A DNA stretch of 64,000 nt from NCBI GenBank assembly GCA_012513225.1, contig JAAZCQ010000017.1:1-64000 (forward strand), given 5' to 3'. The first letter of the stretch is position 1. Each line of letters opens with the position of its first letter. The stretch comes from Erysipelotrichaceae bacterium (GTDB lineage Bacteria; Bacillota_I; Bacilli_A; Erysipelotrichales; Erysipelotrichaceae). Shown piece after piece: positions 13,943 through 18,730 of the stretch. The position numbers were made by a program, and so were the translations under genes. A model generated the notes under the pieces. The model made no database searches. It was not told where the DNA came from and saw only the letters and a list, made by a program, of their open reading frames with translations.

Positions 13943-14695
13943 TTAAAGATTTATTTCAAGACTTACAGGACAATGGTCAGATCCAAATATTTCATTATAA
14001 ATCTTTGCGTCTATTACTTTTTCCATTATTCTATTTGAAACTAAAAAATAATCAATACGCCAACCAGCATTATTTGCTCTAGCATTAAATCTATATGACC
14101 ACCAACTATATTCAACTTTTTCAGGATATAAGGTTCTATATGTATCATTAAACCCTGCATTTAATAATTCTGTAAATTTCGCTCTTTCCTCATCACTAAA
14201 ACCAGCATTTTTTCTATTAGTTTTTGGATTTTTTAAATCTATTTCATTATGAGCTACATTAAGATCTCCACAATATATAACAGGTTTAATATCATCAAGA
14301 CTTTTTAAATAACTCCTAAGTTGATCTTCCCATTCCATTCTATAATCTAATCTAAGTAATTTTTCTTTAGAATTAGGAACATAGGCATTAACAAAATAAA
14401 AATCATCATATTCTAAAGTAATAACTCTTCCTTCATCATTATGTATATTAAGTTCAAAGTCATATGAAACACTTAATGGTTCTTTTTTTGTAAAGATAGC
14501 AGTACCTGAATAACCTTTTTTATTAGCACTATGAAAATATTGATGATATCCAGGTAATTCAAGTTCTAATTGATCAGGTTGCATCTTTGTTTCTTGTATT
14601 GCAAAAATATCCGCATCAATCTCATTAAAGAAATCTAAAAACCCCTTATTTACTGCAGCTCTTAAGCCATTCACATTCCACGAAATTAATCTCAC
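13943..14695 (-). CDS. exoA: Exodeoxyribonuclease III (AP endonuclease)
   Basis: The GTG at 14695 is taken as the start: AAGGAG lies 9 bases upstream and the GTG overlaps the TGA of the preceding peptidase gene by 4 bases (GTGA), a typical coupled junction. It gives 250 residues, the normal ExoA size; an ATG at 14728 would add 11 residues with no ribosome site. Motifs of the EEP nuclease fold are complete: SWNVNGLRA, IQETKM (metal Glu), YCGDLNVAH (catalytic Asp/Asn) and GSDHCPV (catalytic His). It cleaves at abasic sites in base excision repair. Confidence 0.95.
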   Translation of the reverse strand: MRLISWNVNGLRAAVNKGFLDFFNEIDADIFAIQETKMQPDQLELELPGYHQYFHSANKKGYSGTAIFTKKEPLSVSYDFELNIHNDEGRVITLEYDDFYFVNAYVPNSKEKLLRLDYRMEWEDQLRSYLKSLDDIKPVIYCGDLNVAHNEIDLKNPKTNRKNAGFSDEERAKFTELLNAGFNDTYRTLYPEKVEYSWWSYRFNARANNAGWRIDYFLVSNRIMEKVIDAKIYNEIFGSDHCPVSLEINL

Positions 14696-16476
14696 TTTTT
14701 TATACTCCTTGTCTGTAGTCTTAACCATGTTTTTTCTTTACTATCAAGATACGGACTGATTTTTTCATAAACCATTTTATGATAATTATTTAATGTATCT
14801 ATTTCTTCATAAGTCATATACTTAGGATCAACAGCATCTAAATCAATAGGACAATATGTCATAGTCTCAAAATACATAAATTGGCCATATTCATTTTTAA
14901 CTCCATTTAATGCTAATAATTCATTTTCAATTCTAATACCTAATTTATTAGGCATATAAACTCCAGGTTCATTAGTTACTATCATACCTTCCTCAATTAC
15001 TGTTGGATTTTTTGATTTCCCCCATCCAATACTTTGAGGACCCTCATGAACTGACATAACATAACCTACACCATGTCCAGTTCCACATTGATAATCTATA
15101 TCTTCATTCCATAATGGTCCTCTTGCAAGAATATCTAAATTTATACCTGTTGTTCCATGTAAAAATTTTGCTCTTGAAAGAGATAACATTCCTCTTAATA
15201 CAAGTGTATATAACTTCTTTTCTTCATCAGTTATTTTCCCTAAAACAATAGTTCTAGTAATATCTGTAGTTCCATCATAATAAGTTCCACCACTATCTAC
15301 TAATAAGAATCCCTCATTATTTAAAGTTGCATTACTTTCATTTGTTGCACTATAATGCATCATCGCAGCATTTTCTTTATATGCACTAATAGTATTAAAA
15401 CTTAAAGAAATAAATCCATCTTGTTCTCTTCTTAACTCTTCAAGTTTATCCGCAACTGAAATTTCACTCATTATTTCTTTTCCAATATTATTTTTTACGT
15501 AACAAATAAACTTAGTCATTGCAACACCATCTTTAATATGACAATTTCTAAGATTCTTTATTTGTACCTTATTTTTAATAGCTCTATATAAACCAGCAGG
15601 ATTTACATTATCGACTATTTCATTTGTATCATCAATTAAGCTATATAAATAAGAATTCAATCTTGTTTTATCTACACTTACTTTTTTATTTTTTAAACTT
15701 CTTAAATCATTTTCTATATCATTATAGTTTTTAATTAAAACATTGTTTTTATTTAATTCTTTTGTAATCCTATTATCTAATTTATTTATATCAATATATA
15801 AAGAAACTTCATCATTATCTATAAGTGCATAACTATATGCAATTGGTGTATGTAAAACATCATTTCCTCTAATATTAAATAACCAATTTACATCTTCTAA
15901 AACACTAAAAACTAATGTAGAAATATCCATATTTTTCATTTCTTTTTTTATTTTAGTTAACTTACTAGTTATATTTTCTCCAGTATATTTATCTAATAAA
16001 AAGAAACATTTATCTTTTGGCATTTCTGGTCTATCAATCCAGATTTCTTGTATTAGATCTTTATCTAAACTTATAGTGCCATTTTTCCCTTTTATTAATG
16101 TAGCCAATCTATCTTTCATATTTTGATTAACCACTTTTCCATCAAAACCTAAAACACCATCTTTAGGAAGCTTACTCACTATAAATTGTTCAAAAGTAAT
16201 TACTCCTAAATTTCTTTGTTTATATAATTTAATTCCTGTATTTTTCAACTGTTTCTCAGCTTGAATGAAATATCTACCATCAGTCCATAATCCAGCTTCT
16301 TTTTGTGTTACTACAACAACTCCTGCAGAACCCGTAAATCCTGATATAAATTCCCTACATTTGAAGTAATTTGCAACATACTCACTCATATGATCATCAT
16401 CAGTTGGAATGTAATAAATATCTATATTATTTTCTTTCATCAATTTTCTTAATGTCTTAATTCTATCTTTTATCAT
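14692..16476 (-). CDS. pepP: Xaa-Pro aminopeptidase, M24B family (long form)
   Basis: The 594-residue protein has two creatinase-like N-terminal domains (about 1-300), a pita-bread M24 catalytic domain (about 305-530) and a short C-terminal extension, the layout of long aminopeptidase P enzymes. Metal ligands are visible in LVDSGGTYYDGTTDITRT (two Asp), GTGHGVGYVMSVHEGP (His), VTNEPGVY (Glu) and IRIENEL (Glu). It removes N-terminal residues that precede proline, in the cytoplasm. GCGAGGTG precedes the ATG. It is coupled to exoA by a 4-base overlap. Confidence 0.92.
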   Translation of the reverse strand: MIKDRIKTLRKLMKENNIDIYYIPTDDDHMSEYVANYFKCREFISGFTGSAGVVVVTQKEAGLWTDGRYFIQAEKQLKNTGIKLYKQRNLGVITFEQFIVSKLPKDGVLGFDGKVVNQNMKDRLATLIKGKNGTISLDKDLIQEIWIDRPEMPKDKCFFLLDKYTGENITSKLTKIKKEMKNMDISTLVFSVLEDVNWLFNIRGNDVLHTPIAYSYALIDNDEVSLYIDINKLDNRITKELNKNNVLIKNYNDIENDLRSLKNKKVSVDKTRLNSYLYSLIDDTNEIVDNVNPAGLYRAIKNKVQIKNLRNCHIKDGVAMTKFICYVKNNIGKEIMSEISVADKLEELRREQDGFISLSFNTISAYKENAAMMHYSATNESNATLNNEGFLLVDSGGTYYDGTTDITRTIVLGKITDEEKKLYTLVLRGMLSLSRAKFLHGTTGINLDILARGPLWNEDIDYQCGTGHGVGYVMSVHEGPQSIGWGKSKNPTVIEEGMIVTNEPGVYMPNKLGIRIENELLALNGVKNEYGQFMYFETMTYCPIDLDAVDPKYMTYEEIDTLNNYHKMVYEKISPYLDSKEKTWLRLQTRSIKK

Positions 16477-16585
16477 AATTTCACCTCGCTATCTATTATA
16501 TGCTTTTTCATGTATTTTTCATACTGCTTTGATTGATTACAAAGGTGTTTTGGGTTATGCTTTTAGTATTATCAAGGAGTAAATC

Positions 16586-18706
16586 GTGAAGTCAATTTTT
16601 TATTTAGAAGATATTACCTGTGCTATAAGCCATAACTATATATGTAATGAAATAAAGAAAATACAAGGTATAAATAACATCTATTATAATCATTTGTTTT
16701 CTTCTTTTTTTGTAGATTATGATGAAGAAATGGATGTTATATCAATATTTTCAAATATGCAAATAAAAGTATCTATCTTTGAAGATATTACTTTAGTAGT
16801 AGAAAAAATACTATCTAAAGAAAAGTTAATTAAGAAAATTCTTATATTTTCTTTAATTATTTTCTTATTACAAATCATAAATATATTTGTTCCATATTCT
16901 TTAATCCAATTTAAAAATATTAGTAATTTAATATTCAATTTACTTATAAGTTTAACTTCTTATAAATTAATAAGAAATACTATAAATGAAATAAAAATTA
17001 AATTAATTAATGATCTTTCAGTAAAATTAATAATATTTGTTGTCACTGTTTGTTTATTTGGAATGATTAATATTTTAAATAGTTCTTTTATACTTTTCTC
17101 TATTTTTGCTTCTTCAATTATTGTTATACAAAATATCTATAATTACTTAATAGTAATATATAAGAAAAAACTATTTAAAAAGAAAGATTTATCTCTTGCT
17201 ACTGCAATAGTAAAAAGAGATAACAAAGAAGTTGAAGTAAGCTTAAATGAAATCATGCCTGATGATATCATTATTTCAAAGGATAAAACTATTATTCCTT
17301 TGAATGGATCATTAATTGATGGATTTACACAAGTAGATCAATCAATGTATACAAGTGAAGTTCCAATAGTAAGTAAAATAAGAAACAATTCTGTTGTTGC
17401 AGGAATGGTTAATCAATCACAATATAGAGATTTTATAAATTCATCAAATAACGAAAAAAATACCATTAATACAAAATACAAACTAATTTTAGATTCTACC
17501 TCTTCAAAAAATTCTCTTTCTCACTCTTTAAAATTTTTCTATGAATATTTCCACTATATATTACTTATTGTAGGAATACTGTCTTTTATAGTTTATTTTA
17601 TTTATACAAAAACTATTAACCCTTCTTTATTAATTTTGCTTTCATTAAGTTTATTTTATAACTATGAAATTTTCGAATATATAGTTCCTTTAAAAACATT
17701 TGATTTTATTAAAAAGATTTCAGAAGAAGGAATATTTATTAAAAACACTAAATCAATTGAAAAAATAAATAATTGTGAAGTAATAATGTTTGAAAAACAT
17801 GGTGTATTAATAGAAGACTACCCAGAGGTTAAAGATGTATTTATTAGTGAAGGAATAAAACCAAGTGACTTTTATTATATTGCATATATGCTTGTTAAAG
17901 ATTCAAACTCTAAATATGCAATAACTATAAAAAACTATCTTAAAAATATTCATCTAAGTTCTTTAGATCCAGAACAAGTTAAAAATACTAACAGAAAAGG
18001 TATCGCAAAAGATAAAATAATAAAAGACTATCAATATGGTAATTATAAATTTTGTAAAAATAAAAATATTAATTTAGCTAAAGTAGAACCATCTATAAAA
18101 AGATTCCAAATTCAGGGAAAAAATTCAATAATATTTACACACAAAAATGAAATAATAGGTATTCTTACAATACAAAGCATATTAAGAGATGATGTAAAAA
18201 GCACTATCGACATATTAAATAATCAAAATAAAAGAATTATTTTACTTGATAATAGTGAACCAGAAATTACCAAATACTATGCATCAAAACTAAATATAAA
18301 AGAATACTATAGTAATTTAAATATTAATCAAAAATCAAGATTAGTAGATTCTCTATATTTAGAAGGTAATAAAACTATATATGTATCAAACATAAAAAAT
18401 AATAAAAAATTCCCAGAAAATACAGATGTTAATATTTCTTTTAGTCAAGATATTAATTTTGAGATTAAAGAAGCAGATATTATTGTTACAAGATCAGATA
18501 TTAAAGGTTTATTAAATATTATGGAAAATAGTAAACAAACTATAAAAGAAATAACCAATCAAATATCATTATTTATTCAAGTTTATGGCCTATTAATTTT
18601 ACTATCATTATTATTAACTTTATTTGTATACATTACACCATATTTTATATTAATTATTGTTACTTTGCTTCCTATATCTTTATTTATATATTATACAAAC
18701 AATTAA
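16586..18706 (+). CDS. Catalytically inactive P1B-type (heavy-metal) ATPase homologue
   Basis: The 706-residue open frame follows the P1B plan: a heavy-metal-associated-like domain (about 3-62), membrane pairs, an actuator domain (about 200-300), another membrane pair, P/N domains (about 395-635) and two final helices. Every functional motif is changed. The phosphorylated Asp of DKTGT is replaced (FEKHGVL, 402-408), TGES is TSEV (255-258), the membrane CPC is absent (YNYEIFEYIVP), TGDN is LLDN (553-556) and GDGxND is VSNIKNN (600-606). The metal-binding CxxC of the N-domain is also gone. Flanking framework (EEGIFIKNTKSIEKI, YGNYKF, KEADIIV) is well kept. Start is GTG after AAGGAG. Transport is not expected; a regulatory or scaffold role is inference. 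Confidence 0.8.
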   Translation: MKSIFYLEDITCAISHNYICNEIKKIQGINNIYYNHLFSSFFVDYDEEMDVISIFSNMQIKVSIFEDITLVVEKILSKEKLIKKILIFSLIIFLLQIINIFVPYSLIQFKNISNLIFNLLISLTSYKLIRNTINEIKIKLINDLSVKLIIFVVTVCLFGMINILNSSFILFSIFASSIIVIQNIYNYLIVIYKKKLFKKKDLSLATAIVKRDNKEVEVSLNEIMPDDIIISKDKTIIPLNGSLIDGFTQVDQSMYTSEVPIVSKIRNNSVVAGMVNQSQYRDFINSSNNEKNTINTKYKLILDSTSSKNSLSHSLKFFYEYFHYILLIVGILSFIVYFIYTKTINPSLLILLSLSLFYNYEIFEYIVPLKTFDFIKKISEEGIFIKNTKSIEKINNCEVIMFEKHGVLIEDYPEVKDVFISEGIKPSDFYYIAYMLVKDSNSKYAITIKNYLKNIHLSSLDPEQVKNTNRKGIAKDKIIKDYQYGNYKFCKNKNINLAKVEPSIKRFQIQGKNSIIFTHKNEIIGILTIQSILRDDVKSTIDILNNQNKRIILLDNSEPEITKYYASKLNIKEYYSNLNINQKSRLVDSLYLEGNKTIYVSNIKNNKKFPENTDVNISFSQDINFEIKEADIIVTRSDIKGLLNIMENSKQTIKEITNQISLFIQVYGLLILLSLLLTLFVYITPYFILIIVTLLPISLFIYYTNN

Positions 18707-18730
18707 AGTCAGGGTTTAATCCCTGACTTT
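18705..18730. terminator. Bidirectional terminator covering two stop codons
   Basis: AAAGTCAGGG (18705-18714) and CCCTGACTTT (18721-18730) form a perfect 10-bp stem. The stop codons of both convergent genes (18704-18706 plus, 18716-18718 minus) lie inside or at the edge of it. Confidence 0.9.

Follow-up and report, generated by a model that had tools for sequence, protein, structure and literature searches.

Why should a bacterium keep a full-length gene for a heavy-metal pump once the motifs on which pumping depends have gone? P-type ATPases are the textbook case of a fold bound to a phosphorylation cycle, and the stretch of Erysipelotrichaceae DNA that we analyzed (64,000 nucleotides, here called the window) carries a P1B-type homologue in which those motifs are replaced. 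The gene is an uninterrupted open reading frame of 706 codons with a GTG start and an AAGGAG ribosome site six bases upstream of it, and at the gene's own composition (20% GC) a run of this length would stay open by chance with a probability of about 1e-32. The 706-aa product matches Pfam E1-E2_ATPase (8e-19) and HAD hydrolase (2e-6), each exceeding its gathering score, and its alignment with CopA 3j09 spans residues 8-687, so that P1B homology is evident; together with the structural model described below, it gives A, P, and N domains and an eight-helix membrane architecture. A frame without stops and a complete heavy-metal ATPase layout had been claimed in an earlier sequence-only reading, and both are borne out. 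The TIGR01525 (NCBIfam) match is significant (4e-48), but at 165 bits, against a cutoff of 346, it lies below the family cutoff.

The structural model agrees with this picture. AlphaFold2 predicted a P1B fold with eight transmembrane (TM) helices and an HMA-like fold (pLDDT 80.5, pTM 0.76), and the best solved matches to the model were CopA 7r0g (Z 28.5, 616 residues, 3.7 A) and ATP7B. The underlying alignment of 37 rows consisted mostly of canonical pumps, with P1B ATPases from viral contigs added for depth at this step only, and the model therefore shows that the sequence is compatible with the fold but would not have exposed any rearrangement of it.

The motifs were assessed against CopA of the same genome (contig C52), in which they are intact. 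In the window protein, TGES reads TSEV, CPC reads N-Y-E, DKTGT reads EKHGV, the HP pair reads SK, TGDN reads DNSE, and GDGIND reads SNIKNN (Table 1), confirming that DKTGT, TGES, CPC, TGDN, and GDGxND have all been replaced. The further claim that the metal-binding CxxC is gone holds in part: the motif is broken, reading C-A-I-S with serine in place of the second cysteine, but the first cysteine is still present. None of the metal sites (the CPx of TM6, the CxxC of the HMA domain, and the ligands of TM7 and TM8) is found in the window protein. The alignment shows no intact copy of any motif elsewhere in the protein, and we therefore rejected the possibility that intact motifs had been masked by misalignment.

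Table 1. Features of the pseudo-ATPase gene and its surroundings, in positions of the window
Feature	Position	Strand	Evidence or remark
Pseudo-P1B-ATPase gene, 706 codons + stop, GTG start	16586..18706	+	ORF, homology, motif alignment
HMA-like domain, residues 2-65, CxxC second Cys -> Ser	16589..16780	+	AlphaFold2, alignment; constrained in both genera
TM helices 1-4, residues 68-202	16787..17191	+	AlphaFold2 secondary structure
Actuator (A) domain, residues 206-304	17201..17497	+	Pfam PF00122, AlphaFold2; mostly deleted in the G001 orthologue
TSEV replacing TGES, residues 256-259	17351..17362	+	Motif alignment
TM helices 5-6, residues 310-379	17513..17722	+	AlphaFold2
N-Y-E replacing metal-site CPC, residues 359-361	17660..17668	+	Motif alignment, column conservation
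P + N domains, residues 380-639	17723..18502	+	Pfam, AlphaFold2, structure match; most constrained part in the window's genus
E-K-H-G-V replacing DKTGT, residues 403-407	17792..17806	+	Motif alignment
N-S-K-Y-A replacing nucleotide-site EHPLA, residues 441-445	17906..17920	+	Motif alignment
D-N-S-E replacing TGDN, residues 555-558	18248..18259	+	Motif alignment
S-N-I-K-N-N replacing GDGIND, residues 601-606	18386..18403	+	Motif alignment
TM helices 7-8, residues 640-705; lacking in the G001 orthologue	18503..18700	+	AlphaFold2, alignment
109-nt region common to the pseudo-ATPase gene and divergent pepP, block-conserved in G001	16477..16585	.	
Hairpin AAAGTCAGGG-loop-CCCTGACTTT at the gene end, before the convergent neighbour	18705..18730	.	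Scored on - strand
pepP (Xaa-Pro aminopeptidase), conserved divergent neighbour, outside the proposed function	14692..16476	-	

A first scan of genome contigs with the window protein alone found no relative, and a second scan with two rows returned only the contig of genome G001 and one canonical ATPase. The G001 contig (JALEZD010000018.1, "Erysipelotrichaceae bacterium isolate SUG468") belongs to the window's genus and encodes an orthologue of 567 aa that is about 35% identical to the window protein, likewise lacks the motifs, and lies, as in the window, beside pepP and the two genes that follow pepP. It is without most of the A domain and without TM7-8. Although reduced to the head plus a portion of the membrane domain, its frame (L037 7844-9547) stays open, and the stop codon is overlapped by a hairpin (GTTGCAGA-loop-TTCTGCAAC). 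With a two-row profile built from the window and G001 proteins we reached members in another genus, g31, that likewise adjoin pepP, and a five-row profile run over 273 genomes of the family separated 24 bearer genomes (E values from 0 to 1e-112) as a score group distinct from the canonical pumps, the next match below them being a protein of G068 with intact motifs. Orthologues of the same clade with the same losses are thus present in 23 other genomes of the family, namely one of the two other genomes of the window's genus and 22 of 70 in g31, and the idea that the gene is a lone relic was rejected accordingly. None of the 24 members contains an internal stop; the TAA listed for G001 terminates that gene's own, shorter frame. 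No orthologue was found on viral contigs, and neither the remainder of the order nor 346 genomes from the class yielded a further member scoring above the canonical pumps, below which a very divergent one could fall.

We compared columns that were at least 95% identical among 29 CopA-type proteins with the same positions in the pseudo-ATPases, and those absent from all 24 included the second cysteine of the HMA domain, the proline and second cysteine of CPC, the first threonine of DKTGT, the histidine of HP, the Gly-Asp of TGDN, the first Asp of GDGxND, the TM7 Asn, and the TM8 Ser-Ser. In CopA these residues serve phosphorylation, nucleotide gripping, and copper coordination. At the position of the phosphorylated Asp, 18 members, including the window protein, have Glu and six (those of G001, G102, G121, G118, G122, and G130) have Asp; the remaining motif set is gone in all six, in which some residual or altered phosphoryl chemistry is conceivable. 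Structural glycines, the HMA-like fold, the Gly-Lys at residues 511-512, and an N-domain stretch (Y-I-A-Y-x-L, then Y-L) are retained. A CopA-type P1B ATPase has, in short, lost its phosphorylation, dephosphorylation, nucleotide-gripping, and metal motifs and kept its frame and predicted fold.

That selection keeps the frame had been argued from the absence of stops, which by itself is a weak argument; substitution rates make the case. In g31, omega estimated under a codon model in eight pairs was 0.07-0.14, compared with 0.03-0.12 for pepP in the same pairs, and omega = 1 was rejected at p < 1e-57 in each. Joint estimates by domain were 0.11 for HMA, 0.17 for TM1-4, 0.07 for A, 0.08 for TM5-6, 0.09 for P/N, and 0.04 for TM7-8 (pepP, 0.08), so that in this genus constraint on the membrane part matches that on the head. 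The window's genus offers a single pair (G000-G001), in which synonymous sites are saturated. With that saturation, counting gave an omega of 0.64, against 0.20 for pepP; the codon model rejected omega = 1 (likelihood ratio test [LRT], 84), and neutrality was rejected separately for the HMA-like, A-stub, and P/N parts. The TM1-4 signal was marginal, and at these saturated sites the codon model detected no constraint in TM5-6 or the end of the P domain in this pair. These fits indicate that the window copy is under selection in its cytosolic head, the part that remains constrained in this genus, while its membrane portion is relaxed and eroding. The intergenic region shared with pepP likewise keeps conserved blocks (CTATTATAT, TTTCATAC, and CTTTGATTGA) relative to G001 despite the saturated synonymous sites; a promoter scan returned fewer sites than in shuffles, and we claim no promoter. 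A neutrally drifting frame was rejected on the omega estimates and the improbability of the open run. With catalytic motifs lost in all 24 members and purifying selection that is strong in g31 and partial in the window's genus, these proteins are probably pseudoenzymes, which in general share a fold and an open frame kept under selection without catalytic residues. Of the three outcomes that the sequence-only reading had named as refuting it (no orthologues, dN/dS near 1, and intact motifs elsewhere in the protein), none was obtained, and that reading is supported.

The conserved neighbour that the sequence-only reading had suggested looking for is pepP, divergent from and next to 23 of the 24 pseudo-ATPase genes; in the exception, G111, it lies about 24 kb off on the same contig. 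An intact CopA occupies the same pepP site in three genomes of other genera (G068, G031, and G254), and adjacency to pepP is therefore better read as an inherited position than as evidence of joint function. For the same reason, the pseudo-ATPase probably descends from the copA at this site. The pepP-site CopA of another genome, G021 (L142 5714-8197), has DKTNT for DKTGT and SGES for TGES with its other motifs intact, and is possibly an intermediate or a tolerated variant. In a mixture-model tree, on which our conclusions about origin rest, 11 sampled pseudo-ATPases formed one clade (99/98) among CopA-type pumps. A topology joining them with the pepP-site CopAs of G068 and G031 was not rejected, and its likelihood exceeded that of the free search by 31 log units; an origin of its own for the pseudo-ATPase of the window's genus was also not rejected (p-AU 0.69) but scored less well (15 units). 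With FastTree the clade fell, weakly supported, outside almost every CopA, which we read as a long-branch effect. Given the intact CopA at this site elsewhere, the simplest history is a single loss of activity there followed by gene losses, and we favor, without regarding as proven, the view that activity was lost once, in the copA adjoining pepP. When mapped on a quickly built pepP tree, the presence of the gene can be explained by 4 changes, whereas shuffled distributions need 13 on average. In those non-bearer genomes that were inspected, pepP has a nudC-like gene, prfB, or some other gene beside it, and BLAST showed no pseudo-ATPase remnant among the matches listed. G002, a genome of the window's genus that is 98% complete, has neither pepP (E <= 1e-80) nor the pseudo-ATPase, as though the whole locus had gone at once.

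What, then, does the protein do? The sequence-only reading had put forward a membrane scaffold, a sensor, or a regulatory partner of an active pump as candidate roles. The protein's likeness to CopA-type P1B-1 pumps (TIGR01511, TIGR01525; 3j09, 7r0g) covers whole-length homology, an HMA-like N terminus, eight TM helices, the A, P, and N domains, and a shared locus, the pepP site being occupied by intact CopA in related genera; it differs in that its catalytic and metal-site motifs are all replaced and its scores fall far below the cutoffs. By the features tested, the window protein descends from the P1B ATPases and does not qualify as a working member. Every bearer has a canonical P1B match over the family cutoff elsewhere in its genome (24/24; that of G102 has one in-frame stop), so the dead copy is no stand-in for the pump and is free for another role. 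The window's genome also encodes a 576-aa P1B ATPase (C43, L003 1441-3171) without an HMA domain, in which DKTGT, TGES, and GDGIND are intact and CPG stands where CPC is usual. Because 23 related genomes keep open genes, selected wherever this can be measured well, it is very probable that the dead pump now serves a different purpose. On balance we favor, with moderate confidence, a conserved pseudo-ATPase family of Erysipelotrichaceae-type Bacilli whose members would work without ATP as membrane-anchored binding or regulatory proteins, the HMA-like and P/N head holding a partner or a nonmetal ligand. Since the membrane half is partly dispensable in G001 and the head is kept, a role common to both genera would most simply be binding or regulation by the cytosolic head. 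We put forward only tentatively, as an unlikely extension, that a bacterial P1B pump scaffold has been converted to ATP-independent use, with a ligand or substrate new to it, perhaps in g31 as a receptor or conduit with a rebuilt TM7 Tyr-His site; this would be the first such conversion described for the class.

The main alternative for g31, though on the whole an improbable one, is an ATP-independent transporter, channel, or facilitator, in which a rebuilt site in the membrane part would pass some other substrate, and the head would serve only to hold that part in shape. TM7-8 is the most constrained part of the protein in g31, and the TM7 Tyr-Asn of CopA has become Tyr-His in 22 of the 24 members, all in that genus. 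There is also a precedent in ERMA/TMEM94 of the eukaryotic endoplasmic reticulum, a P-type ATPase-like Mg2+ transporter with degraded motifs (DKQGI for DKTGT, GSSANL for GDGVND, and no TGES) that has 10 TM helices and keeps the Asp, which is reported to be essential (PMC13322241). It is the closest known analogue, compared here at the level of the P-type superfamily: both proteins have a P-type fold with degraded motifs, whereas the window protein is bacterial and P1B derived, with Glu at the Asp position and eight TM helices. No bacterial pseudo-P-type or pseudo-P1B ATPase family was described in the open-access literature searched, outside which subscription papers mostly lie. However, the G001 orthologue is without TM7-8 and the window protein is without the Tyr-His pair, so a conduit cannot be the role common to both genera.

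We think it doubtful that the protein acts as a regulatory or dominant partner of an active P1B pump, for instance as a heterodimer with CopA. The canonical pump in every bearer would provide the partner, and shared ancestry would give an interaction surface, but in g31 the presence of CopA is not associated with that of the pseudo-ATPase (18/22 bearers versus 43/48 non-bearers; p 0.45), and the two genes are unlinked, lying on different contigs. Late decay of the gene in the window's genus, within a family that is functional overall, would accord with the shortened G001 copy, the lack of detectable constraint on TM5-6 and the P-domain end, the counted omega well above that of pepP, and the absence of both genes from G002 at the thresholds used, but it is very improbable given the overall and head-specific rejection of omega = 1, long conserved runs such as SDFYxIAYMLVK, the minute chance of the open frame, and the conserved upstream region.

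A conserved bacterial branch in which the whole cycle has been erased would mean that the P-type fold can be worth keeping by itself. The pepP locus offers a compact natural comparison, since related genera have the same pump there in an intact or a dead form. Homology-based annotation may call such genes heavy-metal ATPases, and copper handling would then be wrongly predicted for the genomes that carry them.
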